Shown: positions 44,993 through 52,800, counted from the first letter of the stretch. The stretch is DNA of 64,000 bases from an uncultured SAR116 cluster alpha proteobacterium (GCA_902625725.1 CACOCY010000001.1:1-64000), one strand, 5' to 3'. Notes: a model not told the origin generated them from the letters alone. Numbers and translations: made by a program.

Positions 44993-45050
44993 CCAAAAAG
45001 TAAGGGGCAGCATAAAAACACTACCCCTTTACCTACTTTTTGGGCCATTT
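44993..45050. repeat. Imperfect inverted repeat upstream of a small ORF
   Basis: CCAAAAAGTA with AGGGG on the left pairs with CCCCT and TACTTTTTGG on the right, with a small bulge and an internal A-rich loop. It ends about 16 bp before the ATG of the 32-codon frame. It could be a terminator-like or leader hairpin. Confidence 0.45.
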
Positions 45051-45065
45051 TAGGGAGGAAATCTA

Positions 45066-45164
45066 ATGACCAAATTCAATTACAAAAATCCTGCGCTTCT
45101 TCATACTGCTAAGATTACACACAAGCGGTGCATTTTTTGCAGCAGCACTTTATTAAACCATTAA
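45066..45164 (+). CDS. Candidate small Cys-pair protein, 32 aa
   Basis: The frame starts with ATG at 45066, with GGGAGGAAATCTA as a strong ribosome binding site. The product is basic, starting MTKFNYKNPALL and ending in KRCIFCSSTLLNH. The C-x2-C near a C-terminal His is suggestive of a metal site, but this is inference. No family is recognised. Strong initiation signals are the main support. Confidence 0.42.
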   Translation: MTKFNYKNPALLHTAKITHKRCIFCSSTLLNH

Positions 45165-45262
45165 ATCTTCGAATTAGTCGTTATGAGAGTTGACTGATTT
45201 TAGAAAAGAGGCAAGATACATCTAAATGCGTATCAACTAAATAAAAGGTCGGAATATTTCAG

Positions 45263-45691
45263 ATGAAGGCATTGCATTTAATTTGCAGATTTAACCCGGA
45301 AACGAATAGAGGCTTCGGTGTCGATGCCTATGACAGAAAAGATCCACCTAGTTGGGTAAGAGATGACCCCAAGAATATATTTACATCAGGATTTTGGGTG
45401 TGTGGAACTTCAGAAGCTACAGAGCTTGTTGGAGGTCGATTGCATTTGCACGAAAGCAAAACGGAGAGGTCTTGGTTAAGTGGGAAGGTAATAGACGTTC
45501 TGTTGATAAATATGGACTTTCCAGGTAGATGGTTTGTCGATGAAAAAGATGGGTCAAATGATTGGCAGCCTGAAAAAATAAGAGATAGAATTGTCTTTAA
45601 GGTTGAGGTTACTGCATCAACACGCGTGCCAACTACTTGGAGAGGCGCAAAACACAAAATGGCTTACTCTAGTGGTGTTATAGAAGTTTAA
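45263..45691 (+). CDS. Hypothetical protein, 142 aa
   Basis: The protein has no signal peptide or membrane segment and looks like a compact beta-rich domain. Notable stretches are GFWVCGTSEATELVGGRLHL, the middle KTERSWLSGKVIDVLLI, a DRIVFKVEVTA strand, and the end RGAKHKMAYSSGVIEV. The GGRLHLHESK and W-RG-KH-MAYSSG spacing suggests a small nucleic-acid or ligand-binding fold (PUA/EVE-like), but I cannot assign it. ATG start with GGAA about 12 bases upstream. It sits in an accessory segment. Confidence 0.6.
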   Translation: MKALHLICRFNPETNRGFGVDAYDRKDPPSWVRDDPKNIFTSGFWVCGTSEATELVGGRLHLHESKTERSWLSGKVIDVLLINMDFPGRWFVDEKDGSNDWQPEKIRDRIVFKVEVTASTRVPTTWRGAKHKMAYSSGVIEV

Positions 45692-45935
45692 GTTTTGTTA
45701 TCTTTTCAGCCCATGGTTGCGTGTCTAAAAACAATAGGGATGTTTAAATAGCCGACTTTATCTTGTTCAAGTTGAAGGTCAGATTTGTTAAAATCAATGA
45801 ATTTTCCAGACATTTTTTTATTTGCTTTCTCTTTTATTCAAAGATCTATTTTGCAGATGAAGCTATGTTTAATAAATTTAAAATAACAGGAATTTACATT
45901 GATTTAGAAGTGCACAAAGTTGGGTGGAGGCCAGA

Positions 45936-46894: not shown

Positions 46895-48277
46895 ATGCTG
46901 ACATCTATCATACGATTTATTTTCCTACTTTTTTTCGTTAATGTCACTCTTGCCGGATGCATGATTTATGTTAGCTCCGACGATGCTGATGTTGTAGCGG
47001 CAAAAATTACGGGTGGTGCAAATGACTTTAATGTATGTGAAGAGGCTGCATATTTAAACAAAGCGGACAACCTAATTTGGCGGCAAGGAAAACAAATTTG
47101 GATTACAGAAGTAAAAAATCGAAACTTGAATTGCAGTACGCTCCTTAAAGCAGGATTTAATTCAAGTTATAATGCTTCTTTGAAGACACAGCAACAGAAG
47201 GAGCAGAAAGTAAAAAATAATGACACTAGCGTACCTCTGATTGACTATTTATTTGCTAATACAAGTGGCAAGCAGGGTATCATTAAAGGCCGTGCGAGAG
47301 ACAATATTGGGATAGCTGAGGTGACTGTTGATGGCCTCGCCGTACAGGTACATCCTGATGGACGATTTGAACATCGCACGTTTATTCCGGTAGATGGGAA
47401 GCAAATTTTAGTAGAAGCAACAGACCTAGCTGGACTTACCTCTCAAAGGCAACTCAACCTGTTTAGAAACACCGGCAACCAATTAGAATCCATCTCCTTC
47501 GATAAACTGAACCCACTTGGTAAACGAGTAGCGAAGAATAGAGATGCTCTTGCCCTGATTGTAGGTGTGACAAAGTATCAGGAGACTCCCGCCGAAGCCA
47601 TTTATGCAGATAACGATGCTAAAATGTTCGTAGACTTTGCTACTGAGAAGTTGGGCGTATCTGATAACCGAATTGAGACACTCATCAACGATGAAGCAGA
47701 GCTGACAGACATGCTTCATTCAATTAAAAACTGGTTATTTCGTTCTGTTAAACGGGAAAGAACTGACGTATATGTCTTCTTCGCTGGGCACGGACTAGCA
47801 TCAGATGATGGTGAGAAGATGTATCTGCTACCCTATGATGGCTCTCCACAGTTCCTTGACCGAACTGCCATCTCAAGCTTTGAGTTATTTAATGACATAG
47901 CCAGTGCCAACCCACGTAGTGTGACAGTCTTTCTAGACACCTGTTACTCAGGCACGACACGTGGACCAGAAATGCTGATAGCTTCCCGTCCTATTGTCAT
48001 TAAAGCTAAGGAACAGGCTATACCAGATAACTTTACGGTGTTTACAGCAGCAGCAGGTGACCAGACCGCTAATCCATTACTAGAGGCAGAGCATGGTATG
48101 TTCTCCTACTTCCTTATGAAGGGTATGGAAGGCGATGCGGATGCTAATCAGGATAATCAGATTACAGCAGGTGAGTTACATACCTATGTGGAAGAAAATG
48201 TCATACAGCAGTCCAGTGGCTCACAGACACCTGACTTACAAGGTGATACCAATAGAGTGATTGTGCAGTTTAACTAG
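46895..48277 (+). CDS. Lipoprotein caspase-like (C14) protease with EF-hand loop
   Basis: The 460-aa protein has a signal sequence with lipobox LAGC (Cys22), a beta-sandwich domain at about residues 120-195 (KGRARDNIGIAEVTVDG...EATDLAGL), and a caspase-like domain from about 220. The His-Cys dyad is visible as FAGHG (His299) and LDTCYSG (Cys350). A perfect EF-hand loop, DANQDNQITAGE, is at 416-427, with acidic or polar ligands at positions 1, 3, 5, 7, 9 and 12. Bacterial orthocaspases with Ca control are known. TAGGAAA precedes the ATG. It would act at a membrane, facing the periplasm. Targets are unknown. Confidence 0.88.
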   Translation: MLTSIIRFIFLLFFVNVTLAGCMIYVSSDDADVVAAKITGGANDFNVCEEAAYLNKADNLIWRQGKQIWITEVKNRNLNCSTLLKAGFNSSYNASLKTQQQKEQKVKNNDTSVPLIDYLFANTSGKQGIIKGRARDNIGIAEVTVDGLAVQVHPDGRFEHRTFIPVDGKQILVEATDLAGLTSQRQLNLFRNTGNQLESISFDKLNPLGKRVAKNRDALALIVGVTKYQETPAEAIYADNDAKMFVDFATEKLGVSDNRIETLINDEAELTDMLHSIKNWLFRSVKRERTDVYVFFAGHGLASDDGEKMYLLPYDGSPQFLDRTAISSFELFNDIASANPRSVTVFLDTCYSGTTRGPEMLIASRPIVIKAKEQAIPDNFTVFTAAAGDQTANPLLEAEHGMFSYFLMKGMEGDADANQDNQITAGELHTYVEENVIQQSSGSQTPDLQGDTNRVIVQFN

Positions 48278-48312
48278 CACATAGACACACCCATTTAACC
48301 CTAGCTATGTGC
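48277..48312. terminator. Hairpin between convergent genes
   Basis: GCACATAG at 48277 pairs perfectly with CTATGTGC at 48305, with a 20-nt loop. The gene after it on the minus strand ends at 48370. No T-run follows, so termination here is only probable from the convergent layout. Confidence 0.35.
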
Positions 48313-48369
48313 ATATCTTGGTAATCACATTGATAACTAAATTCTAAATCACCACCTTTGGTCTCAATT

Positions 48370-49626
48370 TCAATTAAGCGAAGAGAGAAAAACATGCACT
48401 GATTTGCCAAGTTCTTTATACAAACGATTAGCATATGGGTCGGTATCTGATAGCTGTTTGAGCTTTTTAAATGAACGATATATTTTTTTATTTTCTTTGT
48501 TTTTAATTGCTAAGTTACCAGCTTCAAAAATACTGTCACTACCCTCCACATATTTACCTTGAGCAATTAATACTACACCAAGGTTATAAAAATCTGAACT
48601 TCTTGCATCTTTGTTTTTAAGTTTTTTTTTGAATGCACCCTCAGCCAGCTTAAAATCTTTAAGGTTGAGATATGCAACCCCAGCAATAGATAAAGCATCT
48701 GCATTATTTCCATCTAGAACTAGCAATCTAAGACTATAATCAACTGCATTTTTTGGGTCTCTTAATAATAGGCTTGCTCTCGCAGCTACCAATAAATTCT
48801 CTTTATCTACAGGATTTTGCTTTAAAGTACTTTCAGCTAAAACAAGTGCTTCTTCATAAGCACCCTTTGAAAGTAATGAAATTGGTGTTTCATTAGATTT
48901 TCTCAGCTCTGACTTGTTTTCAATATCATTCACACTGATATTGTCAATAATATCAATTATTTCCGTATCATCATAAGTTAGGACACTTCTATCTGGTAAT
49001 TTCTCTATTGTTTTTCTGATTGCTAAATCAATCATTTGCATTGCTACTTCCTCGCTATTATTCTGGGTGGCAGAATAAATGCCGGTGAGTAAAGATATCG
49101 GAGATAGTGGAATGTTGCCATCTGAACTATCGGCGAGGTGATGTGCCTTCCATATTAATTGATTGTTTTCGTCTTTAAGAAATAGACTTATTTCTACTTT
49201 TGTAGAGGAAAAAGCTACTAGATAATCATTCTTAAATTGGGTGATTTCACCTTCCATTACGGCATCACAATCAAGGATTTGCAGTATCTCGGAATTACTT
49301 TTTTCAGAAAAATTATCAATTCTGGTTAATTCTATATCCCGGTAGTTTTTTGAAGATAACGCTCCGTAAGCTGCTTGCCTAACTAGAGTTGATTTGGACA
49401 AATTACTAAAGTCTTTAGATTCAGAGTTATCTATTATGTTTCTGACAGCAATACACTCAATTTCTTCAGGATTAAAATCGGTAGTAAGAACGGTATTTGA
49501 TTTAGTAACTTCAGAATTTTTAATTTTGACTTCAGAATTTAGATTATTTTGTGCAGAGCAGCTTGCTAAAATACAAAAAGAAAGAGCATTAAGAAAAATT
49601 ATTCTGTATTTGCCTAAGGAGAACAT
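48370..49626 (-). CDS. Lipoprotein with GNA1162-like and TPR regions
   Basis: The 418-aa product starts at the ATG at 49626, giving a signal peptide with lipobox LASC; the frame is open further upstream. The first half (about 45-220) looks like the lipoprotein domains of the GNA1162/LpoB type: ECIAVRNIIDNSE, LVRQAAYGALSSKNY and CDAVMEGEITQF. The second half is TPR-like: EEALVLAESTLKQNP, AVDYSLRLLVLDGNNADALS and KLAEGAFKKKLKNKDAR. It is divergent from the protease operon with a 40-bp gap, and converges on the caspase gene. It is likely an outer-membrane scaffold, by inference. Confidence 0.72.
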   Translation of the reverse strand: MFSLGKYRIIFLNALSFCILASCSAQNNLNSEVKIKNSEVTKSNTVLTTDFNPEEIECIAVRNIIDNSESKDFSNLSKSTLVRQAAYGALSSKNYRDIELTRIDNFSEKSNSEILQILDCDAVMEGEITQFKNDYLVAFSSTKVEISLFLKDENNQLIWKAHHLADSSDGNIPLSPISLLTGIYSATQNNSEEVAMQMIDLAIRKTIEKLPDRSVLTYDDTEIIDIIDNISVNDIENKSELRKSNETPISLLSKGAYEEALVLAESTLKQNPVDKENLLVAARASLLLRDPKNAVDYSLRLLVLDGNNADALSIAGVAYLNLKDFKLAEGAFKKKLKNKDARSSDFYNLGVVLIAQGKYVEGSDSIFEAGNLAIKNKENKKIYRSFKKLKQLSDTDPYANRLYKELGKSVHVFLSSLN

Positions 49627-49666
49627 ATTACCTATTCTTATATTTAATTTATTATTATTTAAAACG

Positions 49667-51274
49667 ATGGGCCATGCTGTGTATAAAGTCATTAGAAATT
49701 TAATAATTTTATTTTTTTCATTTTCCTTATTTTCTACTCATTTAGCGGCTATGAGCAACGACGAATATGACAAAATAAATAAACTAGTTGAGCAGCAAAA
49801 CATTGAGGCAGCATTTGCTAAAGTCAAATCTATATCTTCAGGTAAAAAGAAACTAGAACCAAAGACTCTTCTCATTCTGGGTAAAATCTATCTTGAGCTA
49901 GAAAAACCAAAAAAGGCAAAGGAATATTTTGAAAAAGTTTTATTTTCCTCAACCCAATATGACGGGAAAGCGAAAGCAGGAATAGCTTTAGCGGAATTAA
50001 AGATGGGTAATTTTTTGGAAGCTAAACAACTTTCAACTGATGCAACGAATTTAAACCCTGATGATGTTTATTCAAAAATAATTTATGCAATAGCTCATGC
50101 TAGTGCTTTAACAGATGATGAAGAAGAAAAATTATTTTTAAATGCGATGGAAGCAGCTGGGCAGAGTACTTTTGCAGGGCGTAAATATGTGGAGATACTT
50201 CTAAGAAAAAACAGAGTAAAAAAAGCAGAAGAAATACTAAAAAAAACTATGATACAGAATTCTTTAGATGCGCCTTCCATGGAATTATACTCTGACATTA
50301 GTTGGCTTAAAGGAAATTCAGAAGAAGCTATAAAATACCGAATTGATGCAGAGCAAGCTTATCGTAATGCAGGTAACATAATAAAGGCTGACCAAATTAT
50401 TAGATGGCTCAATTTTGAAGCTGTGCCAAATATTGAAATTAAAGTAATTGAAAAACCAAAATCACAAAACGACGAGAATATTTCAGAGGATACAAAGATA
50501 CAGCCTGTTGATACCAAACCAGAAATTGTTCAAGATGCGCCAAAGATTGCAGAAGTCCAAGAAAAACTAGAACCAACACCCAACAGAAAAGTATTTGACC
50601 CTCTTGAAGCACCAGAGCCAATAAATATTGACCCAGATAAAGTCGTTATAACAGGAAGTGGAACCATCATCGCTAACGGTAGAGAAATACTCAGAAATCG
50701 TCATGTGGTTGAGGGTCTAAATTATATAATTGTCCGAAACGGATTAGGAGAAGTGCGAAGGGCTGAGGGAGTTACACTTTCAGAAGAAGATGACTTAGCC
50801 ATCGTTTATTTAGAAAGACCATTCTCTAATGAATATGCATTTTCTGTAAATGATTTTAGAGCCGTTGAGGCAGGTGAACAAATCTATGTTATAGGCTATC
50901 CAATGGCCTCCACTTTTGGCTCTTTTCATCCAACCATCACTACAGGAATTGTAAGTAATGCAACTGGTTTTGCAGACACTCCAGGAGAGTTCCAAATAAC
51001 AGCTGGCGTAAATCCTGGTAATAGTGGTGGACCTATTTTTAATAAATTTGGAAAAATAGTAGGTGTTGCCACTGGTGGAATTGACAAATCTGCGGTTTTA
51101 GAAGAAGAAGGTTTTATTCCTGACGGAATAAACTTTGGGGTAAACACCCCTGCCGTGTTAGATTTTTTAAGTCGCCCCGTAAACGCATCCAGCTCTATTG
51201 ATTATGAGTATGACGCGCAAACACTTTATCGCTACATGAGGTCTTCTGTTGTATTCATTGTGGGTCAGGAATAG
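49667..51274 (+). CDS. Secreted TPR-trypsin-like serine protease
   Basis: The ATG at 49667 gives a 535-aa protein with a clear signal peptide (ILFFSFSLFSTHLA), TPR-like helices (about 30-250: KTLLILGKIYLELEKPKKAKE), a Pro/Glu-rich linker, and a trypsin-like domain from about 325. The triad is readable as His346 (RNRHVVEG), Asp376 (DDLAIV) and Ser453 (PGNSGGP). No PDZ domain is seen, so it is not a standard DegP. No strong ribosome site is present. The frame is open further upstream, but that part overlaps the divergent lipoprotein gene. The downstream gene overlaps its end by 26 bp. Confidence 0.85.
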   Translation: MGHAVYKVIRNLIILFFSFSLFSTHLAAMSNDEYDKINKLVEQQNIEAAFAKVKSISSGKKKLEPKTLLILGKIYLELEKPKKAKEYFEKVLFSSTQYDGKAKAGIALAELKMGNFLEAKQLSTDATNLNPDDVYSKIIYAIAHASALTDDEEEKLFLNAMEAAGQSTFAGRKYVEILLRKNRVKKAEEILKKTMIQNSLDAPSMELYSDISWLKGNSEEAIKYRIDAEQAYRNAGNIIKADQIIRWLNFEAVPNIEIKVIEKPKSQNDENISEDTKIQPVDTKPEIVQDAPKIAEVQEKLEPTPNRKVFDPLEAPEPINIDPDKVVITGSGTIIANGREILRNRHVVEGLNYIIVRNGLGEVRRAEGVTLSEEDDLAIVYLERPFSNEYAFSVNDFRAVEAGEQIYVIGYPMASTFGSFHPTITTGIVSNATGFADTPGEFQITAGVNPGNSGGPIFNKFGKIVGVATGGIDKSAVLEEEGFIPDGINFGVNTPAVLDFLSRPVNASSSIDYEYDAQTLYRYMRSSVVFIVGQE

Positions 51275-52055
51275 TATATTAACTCTGTCATTTTTAGTTT
51301 GTACTCACGTTAATGCCGAGACAATAACAACTGAAGGAAGGGCATTTTTTCCGACAAACATCAGTCAAGTTGACAGTTGCAATTTGGCATTTACTAATGC
51401 AAAGAAAAACGCTTTGGGTCTGGCAGGATTAGAGAAGAACAGATTCAATACAATAGACATTTGCATTGAAAATAACGACGTGAAGAAATGCGAACTATTT
51501 CAAGAAAATCATAGTTACTTTGATGGTGGTTTTATCAAAAGCGATGAGATATTAGGCAAGCCTAAAATTGTTGGAGAAGGACTTCAAAGAGAGTGTTTGA
51601 TAACGGCTAAATTTGAAATAAAAAAATACCAAGACCAGCCAGACCCTAACTTCGTACTTATAGCGGAATTGGAACGAAAAAGATTAATTGAAGGTGACGA
51701 TATTATAATTAGAGGTGAGACAAGCCTACCAGCAAACCTTTATCTTTTAGGAGTTACAGATAAAGACAAATACATTAAATTGATTCCAAATCAGTTTGAA
51801 AAAACAAAAAAAATTAACGGAAAGTTTCAACTGCCATCAGTTGAAGCTGGTAAAAAATATAGTTTGGAGGCACAACTTCCCTCTCAATCAACGGATATTA
51901 AAGAAATAACGGAGTATATTATTTTGTTGGCAACAAAGAAGGATTTTGTTTTAGTAGATGAGGAAGATGAAGCGAATTTTCATAAACGGTTGGATGAGTT
52001 AGGACGAGGGAACTGGCGCAAACGACCTTTGGTCTATTCAATTTATAAGGAATGA
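51249..52055 (+). CDS. Secreted DUF4384-like protein (TTG start)
   Basis: The TTG at 51249 gives a signal peptide (SILTLSFLVCTHVNA). The N-terminal part (TTEGRAFFPTNISQ..AFTNAKKNALGLAG) looks like the FlgT/LPP20-type domain that precedes many such proteins. The C-terminal half resembles DUF4384: ELERKRLIEGDDIIIRG, LYLLGVTDKDKYIKLIPNQF, PSVEAGKKYSLEAQLPS. DUF4384 often occurs with caspase-like or kinase domains, which fits the neighbours. It overlaps the protease gene by 26 bp and the next gene by 4 bp, so all three are coupled. Total 268 aa. Confidence 0.7.
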   Translation: MYSLWVRNSILTLSFLVCTHVNAETITTEGRAFFPTNISQVDSCNLAFTNAKKNALGLAGLEKNRFNTIDICIENNDVKKCELFQENHSYFDGGFIKSDEILGKPKIVGEGLQRECLITAKFEIKKYQDQPDPNFVLIAELERKRLIEGDDIIIRGETSLPANLYLLGVTDKDKYIKLIPNQFEKTKKINGKFQLPSVEAGKKYSLEAQLPSQSTDIKEITEYIILLATKKDFVLVDEEDEANFHKRLDELGRGNWRKRPLVYSIYKE

Positions 52056-52057
52056 AA

Positions 52058-52675
52058 ATGTCTAAATATAAACTTACCTATCTACCTGTACTGGCTATTA
52101 TTGCCTTAAGTGCATGTAATACGACACCCTCTCCAGGTACTCCTGAGGCAAAAGCACAAGCAATAGTAGAGCAAGAAAAGAAGGCTGTTGAGGCGGTAGA
52201 GCAAACGGTAGGTGATATTCCAGATTGGTGCTTGCAACTGCCAACTTCAGATTTTGCTTTATATGCTTGTGGGTCTGGAGAATCTGGTAGCCTAAACATG
52301 TCACGTACAAGGGCAAATCTTGCTGCTAAACGACAGCTTGCCGATATGATAGATAGCGAAATATCTTCAAGGATGGAAGATTTTCTTAGTTCAACAGGCA
52401 CAGGTGATAATGAACAAATACTGCAACAAAGTGAAATTATTACAAAGAACGTAACTATTGAAGCAAGCTTAACTGGGTATAAGCAAATTCAATCTGAGGC
52501 GCAAGCAGTAGGAAGTAAGTTTTTAGTCTATACTCTATTGGAATATCCTATTGGACAGGCCAATCAAGCGTTGGTGAATAAAATCAAAGAAAATGAAATT
52601 TTAATTACTCAAGAAGCAGCAGATGAAGCCCTGGCTGAATTGGAAGCTGAAATTGAGAAAAAACGAAATGAATAA
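52058..52675 (+). CDS. LPP20-like lipoprotein
   Basis: The 205-aa product has a lipobox LSAC after a short signal peptide, then CNTTPSPG and an LPP20-like domain: WCLQLPTSDFALYACGSGES, RTRANLAAKRQLADMIDSEI, and a helical C terminus with acidic repeats. The ATG at 52058 has AAGGA eight bases upstream; an ATG at 52052 overlaps the previous stop. The LPP20 family includes FlgP-type and Helicobacter Lpp20 outer-membrane lipoproteins. It closes the protease operon and would tether the complex to the outer membrane, by inference. Confidence 0.78.
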   Translation: MSKYKLTYLPVLAIIALSACNTTPSPGTPEAKAQAIVEQEKKAVEAVEQTVGDIPDWCLQLPTSDFALYACGSGESGSLNMSRTRANLAAKRQLADMIDSEISSRMEDFLSSTGTGDNEQILQQSEIITKNVTIEASLTGYKQIQSEAQAVGSKFLVYTLLEYPIGQANQALVNKIKENEILITQEAADEALAELEAEIEKKRNE

Positions 52676-52724: not shown

Positions 52725-52800
52725 TGGTGCTGGCAGAGAGACTCGAACTCCCAACCGCCCGATTACAAATCGGGTGCTCTACCAATTGAGCCATGCCAGC
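52725..52800 (-). tRNA. tRNA-Thr (anticodon TGT)
   Basis: The minus strand folds as a complete cloverleaf with acceptor stem GCTGGCA/TGCCAGC, a D arm with GGCTCAATTGGTAGAGC, an anticodon arm CCGATTTGTAATCGG with TGT, and a T arm with GTTCGAGTC. The CCA end is encoded. It lies convergent to the LPP20 gene. Confidence 0.96.

Follow-up and report, generated by a model that had tools for sequence, protein, structure and literature searches.

Exported caspases with variable N-terminal heads and shared envelope partner proteins in SAR116 and other bacteria: a candidate mobile cell-envelope system

Where immune roles of bacterial caspases are known or have been proposed, the enzymes are mostly treated as residing in the cytoplasm or close to the membrane. 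Among described systems, those closest in logic to the locus analyzed here are EACC1, a two-gene caspase system (Kaur et al. 2020, PMC7159879), and EACC2 (PMC8195603). Trypsin, QC-pseudo-orthocaspase and DUF4384 domains are also found fused in single alphaproteobacterial proteins in which the trypsin triad is intact (PMC6426788), and a survey by Asplund-Samuelsson et al. 2012 (PMC3501461) describes bacterial metacaspases with an N-terminal helix and TPR or Sel1 repeats. On the envelope side, a study of the Campylobacter flagellar scaffold attributes an SHS2-like fold to FlgP, Lpp20 and FlgT and places PflC, an HtrA relative lacking the triad, on the FlgP rings (PMC12222027).

The window analyzed here is a stretch of 64,000 nucleotides from an uncultured SAR116 cluster alphaproteobacterium, whose genome assembly comprises 2.0 Mb in 39 contigs. 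It carries a cassette of five genes, g1 to g5 (Table 1).

Table 1. Features of the five-gene cassette and the adjoining tRNA gene, in window coordinates.
Feature	Position	Strand	Remarks
g1, exported caspase lipoprotein, 460 aa	46895..48277	+	Peptidase_C14 8e-16; lipobox LAGC
g1 layout: short variable head, Ig-like domain, caspase domain	46895..48277	+	
g1 variable head, residues 1-93	46895..47173	+	signal peptide, lipobox, Cys-bracketed motif; upstream of conserved module
g1 constant Ig-caspase module, residues 94-460	47174..48274	+	alignment
g1 catalytic dyad span	47789..47944	+	His299 codon 47789-47791 (CAC), Cys350 codon 47942-47944 (TGT)
g1 EF-hand-like loop, predicted Ca site	48140..48175	+	conserved Asp and Glu
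g2, lipoprotein, PelC/GNA1162-fold domain and TPR domain	48370..49626	-	structure model
g3, exported TPR and trypsin-like (HtrA-type) protease	49667..51274	+	Trypsin_2 2.9e-19
g4, exported FlgP-like domain and Ig-like DUF4384 domain	51249..52055	+	model, Pfam
g5, LPP20-like outer-membrane lipoprotein	52052..52675	+	LPP20 profile; lipobox LSAC
tRNA-Thr adjoining cassette	52725..52800	-	other contents at same site in relatives

Like EACC1 and EACC2, the locus combines a constant caspase module with a highly variable partner region in one membrane-associated chain, with a predicted conflict function through proteolytic activation. The variable domain, however, lies C-terminal to the caspase in EACC1 and N-terminal here. 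The present caspases also differ from EACC1 and EACC2 in bearing a signal peptide on the whole protein and an Ig-like domain joined to the tail, and they are accompanied by outer-membrane lipoproteins together with a trypsin-like protease. No EACC1 transmembrane protein was recognized in the gene maps of the neighborhoods. Because the score against the EACC1-associated caspase model NF047832 (69.3 bits) is far below the cut-off of 140 and the variable part occupies the opposite terminus, EACC1 membership is not claimed.

The alphaproteobacterial fusions bring these three domain types together as a functional unit, also with an intact trypsin triad, and thereby support a functional link between the parts; in them the domains share a single polypeptide whose caspase dyad is substituted, whereas separate genes and intact dyads are found here. 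The metacaspases of the 2012 survey likewise join a caspase to repeat domains, with a possible signal peptide and multi-caspase operons in Alphaproteobacteria; the available portion of that source describes neither variable-head arrays nor a GNA1162/DUF4384/LPP20/trypsin set. Searches against the PADLOC models, which come without cut-offs, gave partial matches of the caspase to PDLC02987 (5e-8, model positions 5-149 of 453) and of g3 to the protease part of RT-Protease_XI (1e-15). The open-access literature yielded no description of the five-gene set, in agreement with the sequence-only reading, which knew of no system with this exact composition, and its novelty is provisional; the same literature yielded no paper combining LPP20 with DUF4384 and none relevant on caspases with SAR116. 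The gene set is real and conserved and, as a system, apparently undescribed.

That reading had proposed an envelope protease module of five exported proteins, three of them with lipoboxes. The five open reading frames are indeed present, each with an N-terminal hydrophobic stretch, and lipoboxes are visible by eye in g1 (LAGC), g2 (LASC) and g5 (LSAC). The g2 frame extends to 49692 on the minus strand, a possible alternative start, and g4 begins with a TTG codon at 51249 or 51258. The last three genes overlap, as had been noticed (g3/g4 by 17-26 nt, g4/g5 by 4 nt); since g2 is on the opposite strand, the single overlapping operon consists of g3-g4-g5 only.

The Peptidase_C14 match of g1 scores 58.8 bits against a curated Pfam cut-off of 21.4, while the match of its Ig-like domain to Glucodextran_B (7e-5) falls below the cut-off. 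The catalytic dyad reported from the sequence, His299/Cys350, is intact, and relatives retain the His in 93 of 93 cases and the Cys in 90 of 91. In the EF-hand-like loop, the Asp is conserved in 89/91 relatives and the last Glu in 90/90; this loop is the one feature that suggests control of the module by Ca. The lipobox of the window caspase is atypical of the family, being present in 12 of 86 relatives. A sequence search of the structure database with the caspase tail gave no match at E 1e-5.

In the AlphaFold model of g2 (pLDDT 79), the N-terminal domain superimposes on PelC (5t11_E; Z 15.7, rmsd 2.5 over 138 of 139 residues) and the TPR domain on that of MamA (Z 18.4); the model also matches the GNA1162 structure 4hrv. 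The Pfam GNA1162 score is 20.8 bits in the window versus a cut-off of 25.9, but 16 of 19 g2 members match at E <0.05 (best E 6e-7). The fold of the N-terminal domain and the lipobox are shared with GNA1162/PelC outer-membrane lipoproteins, from which g2 differs in its additional TPR domain; no Pel genes were noted nearby. The Trypsin_2 match of g3 is above the Pfam cut-off, and its triad, already recognized in the earlier reading (His346/Asp376/Ser453), is intact and invariant in 16 relatives. In this it resembles HtrA, with the difference that no C-terminal PDZ domain was matched by Pfam up to E 1.

For g4 (model pLDDT 86), the best Foldseek match is 9hmf_A (probability 1.00, E 3e-3), a chain that is probably FlgP; further structure comparison of residues 131-268 returned only common Ig-like matches with Z <8. 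The labels DUF4384-like for g4 and LPP20-like for g5 had been proposed from the sequence. The window g4 is below the DUF4384 cut-off, but 22 of 25 relatives match (best E 1.9e-8); g5 scores 18.5 bits against the LPP20 cut-off of 25.9, but 18 of 27 members match (best E 1.6e-7). A lipobox pattern is present in 57% of complete g5 relatives, and the best relevant solved relative of g5, 9hmf_C, is a weak match (E 0.12). Both proteins recall the SHS2-fold group of LPP20, FlgP and FlgT through the LPP20 profile of g5 and the FlgP-like N-terminal fold of g4; they differ from it in that no flagellar context was recognized in the gene maps and in the Ig-like DUF4384 domain added to g4.

The sequence-only reading was to be refuted if the genes failed to co-occur in other genomes, and this is not the case: all or most of the set recurs, with its order shuffled, in SAR116, SAR11, a gammaproteobacterium and another alphaproteobacterium. 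An envelope protease module is well supported; it may sense or respond to damage, as the same reading suggested. Among 60 relatives, all five genes stand in the window order in G024, G044 and G055, the caspase of G055 adjoining g2 in the other orientation; G053 holds four of the genes, its caspase being broken by contig ends. A caspase-tail scan of genome contigs gave 72 loci, which were then searched with profiles. They revealed the five-gene set once more in SAR116 and, in other orders, in SAR11 (L121), Litoricola (L123) and an alphaproteobacterium (L124). Two SAR11 single cells, L125 and L126, have g3 and g4 along with caspases and an LPP20 fusion. Nitrosomonadaceae have the order caspase-g4-g2-g5, an operon without g3. 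A class-level search, in which L124 and L168 proved to be one locus, yielded no further full cassette.

Of 136 SAR116-order genomes, 33 have the caspase tail, 25 have g5 and 15 have g2; SAR116 data consist for the most part of single-cell genomes and MAGs. Of the g5 genomes, 23/25 also have the caspase (hypergeometric P=4e-16), as do 15/15 of the g2 genomes (P=3e-11), both values ignoring relatedness. The full set is found in a minority, and many genomes have caspases without g2 or g3.

The strongest clues are the architecture of variable heads on constant tails, the caspase arrays and the mobility, none of which figured in the sequence-only reading. Similarity among caspases sets in sharply near residue 94, and the Ig-caspase module of the window shares 36-78% identity with 19 copies whose heads differ. 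Among 94 tail-bearing proteins, pairs were compared whose tails are at least 60% identical and whose heads are long enough; in 510 of 632 such pairs the heads have no detectable similarity (BLAST, E 1e-4). Head length ranges from 44 to 743 aa. Carrier genomes have 1-6 caspase copies, often in tandem, and one copy each of g2 and g5, the exceptions being a g5 fragment at a contig end (G042) and a split g2 (G062). In the tandem arrays L075 and L054, homologous DNA covers the start with the signal peptide and then the tail, where it runs about 50-80 nt past the stop codon, with the head in between. Such a layout would suit head exchange through homologous recombination.

Pfam searches of 62 heads identified MORN (10), Sel1 (7) and TPR (about 6) repeats, and PG_binding_1, PDZ, CARDB and TPR-S in one head each. 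Those heads in which a domain is recognized are binding or scaffold repeats. A Cys-bracketed motif, C..A...W....EAKRRGLxC, which has no Pfam family, is shared by 13 caspase heads and two non-caspase proteins; it is present at L123:5849-6466, where it is apparently repeated, and at L114:1190-2068, and is possibly an unnamed disulphide-bonded binding module. The short head of the window caspase is filled by a close variant, C..A..W...E.K.RNL.C.

The genomic context suggests mobility: the distribution is patchy, cassettes lie near integrases and tRNA-Thr, and there has been transfer between classes. The most frequent extra neighbor is an integrase family, present at 14 of the 72 loci; three of its copies were examined with Pfam, and each is a Phage_integrase. 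A caspase remnant, 93% identical to the window protein over residues 169-460, is located elsewhere in the G004 genome with 92% DNA identity over 930 bp, against 68-86% for other window segments aligned with same-genus genomes. In a tail tree built by a quick method, the gammaproteobacterial sequences require four label changes, all forced by well-supported branches; some of the genomes behind them are single-cell or MAG assemblies, although the contig bearing L123 measures 696 kb. The tail module is absent from the phage and plasmid records searched, and none of 132 pattern-matching stretches of viral contigs encodes a relative.

The site beside tRNA-Thr (window 44999-45708 and 52725-52800; L162:6147-11000) holds the cassette in the window, lacks it in G001 and holds copper-resistance-like genes in G004. 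With different genes in each relative, it is a possible insertion hot spot. An integrated element marked by a direct repeat of the tRNA-Thr 3' end was considered and rejected, as the window contains no such repeat; because, in addition, the block flanking the site is inverted in G001, a simple insertion is not claimed.

We tentatively favor, at somewhat less than an even chance, a mobile caspase system of the cell envelope in which sensor heads are exchangeable and the outer-membrane platform is shared. Its composition, conservation, co-occurrence, head variability and transfer are read from sequence, and its activation, substrates and outcome might be as follows. The heads would bind different envelope ligands, such as a foreign protein, part of a phage, or a wall or membrane that has been damaged. 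Binding could cluster the receptors through their coiled-coil-like linker, and clustering, perhaps with Ca2+, would activate the caspase. The active enzyme may then target the partners common to all receptors; the likeliest candidates are the TPR-trypsin protease, giving a second proteolytic step, and the platform of outer-membrane lipoproteins made up of g2, g4 and g5. The envelope of the threatened cell would thereby be changed or breached. The function may lie in defense, conflict or stress. Against the proposal stand the small share of full sets, the Nitrosomonadaceae operons lacking g3, the absence of tail matches from the phages, plasmids and viral contigs searched, the partial nature of the defense-model matches, and head variability, which also fits uptake, adhesion or stress functions.

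A more ambitious form of this proposal is doubtful. It would be an undescribed open-ocean envelope immune system, in which a repertoire of exported receptors, their heads recombinable and their caspase tail constant, all signal to one outer-membrane lipoprotein platform and to a second, trypsin-like protease, the heads being exchanged via flanking homology arms and, in SAR11, by locus inversion. If true, it would correspond in the periplasm to the caspase conflict systems of the cytoplasm, and exported multi-head caspases with an outer-membrane platform would extend caspase immune logic to the envelope. The envelope is the first contact point for phages, predators and rivals, and the carriers are among the most abundant ocean bacteria. 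The role of alphaproteobacterial caspases thereby becomes a testable question of one tail, many heads and one platform.

HtrA proteases degrade or process damaged outer-membrane proteins, and the cassette could accordingly serve envelope quality control or a stress response, with g2, g4 and g5 as a scaffold and the heads as substrate adaptors. The HtrA-type protease, the TPR, Sel1, PDZ and peptidoglycan-binding domains, the structural nature of LPP20 and PelC-fold lipoproteins, and the proximity of the Nitrosomonadaceae operon to the mre, PBP2-like and RodA-like genes described below all agree with this explanation. It is nevertheless rather unlikely: a patchy, mobile, multicopy family with unrelated heads is unlike housekeeping proteases, and the majority of these genomes are already equipped with HtrA-like copies of the ordinary kind.

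Polymorphic cargo release, with heads as effectors freed by a self-cutting caspase tail and a platform that may export or display them, is distinctly unlikely. It draws on the constant protease and variable partner in one chain, an arrangement for which self-release of cargo by the caspase was proposed in EACC1 (PMC7159879), on the Lys/Arg-rich coiled-coil-like linkers adjoining the tail, given that orthocaspases cut after Lys/Arg (PMC6426788), and on the fold that g2 shares with PelC, solved as a dodecamer. The heads themselves argue against it, since the 25 most frequent Pfam families of the 62 heads include no recognized toxin-type enzyme and are mostly binding repeats, and no immunity-gene partner was noticed.

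It is highly improbable that the cassette is a surface-display or motility accessory in which the proteases assemble or prune rings of g2, g4 and g5 resembling the flagellar H-ring or basal disk. The SHS2-like fold common to FlgP, Lpp20 and FlgT, the inactive PflC on FlgP rings (PMC12222027) and the origin of the best g4 fold match in that Campylobacter structure are in its favor, but the gene maps show no flagellar gene beside the cassette, the g3 triad is intact, and caspases play no part in the Campylobacter rings. A chance neighborhood of unrelated exported genes, to which the opposite strand of g2 and the minority of full sets might point, is already contradicted by conserved sets in differing orders across several lineages and by the strong co-occurrence.

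Two SAR11 single-cell genomes differ at one chromosomal place. In L125, a 98-aa leader runs on into a caspase; in L126, an 84% identical leader runs on into an LPP20 protein. DNA alignment of L125:7553-12250 with L126:76-4568 shows a segment of ~4.1 kb to be inverted between the two; one of its breaks falls within the leader gene, and both contigs end where a second leader copy would lie. Amplification in single-cell genomes can produce false inversions, and the rearrangement is either a possible lead toward a phase-variable switch or an amplification artifact.

In Nitrosomonadaceae (L129, L131, L136), mreB/mreC/mreD together with PBP2-like and RodA-like genes precede the caspase-g4-g2-g5 operon, which follows about 3-4 kb downstream; the 2012 survey reports a metacaspase with mreBCD in Alcanivorax (PMC3501461). 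A protein of ~480 aa with SRPLDVHRWSD near its N-terminus is encoded in caspase islands at L054:6229-7668, L056:10014-11465 and L120:4547-5998; its L054 copy has no Pfam match. In KSB1 bacteria (L137, L138), a caspase, an LPP20 and a protein-kinase-like gene stand in a row, hinting at a coupling to phosphorylation signaling.
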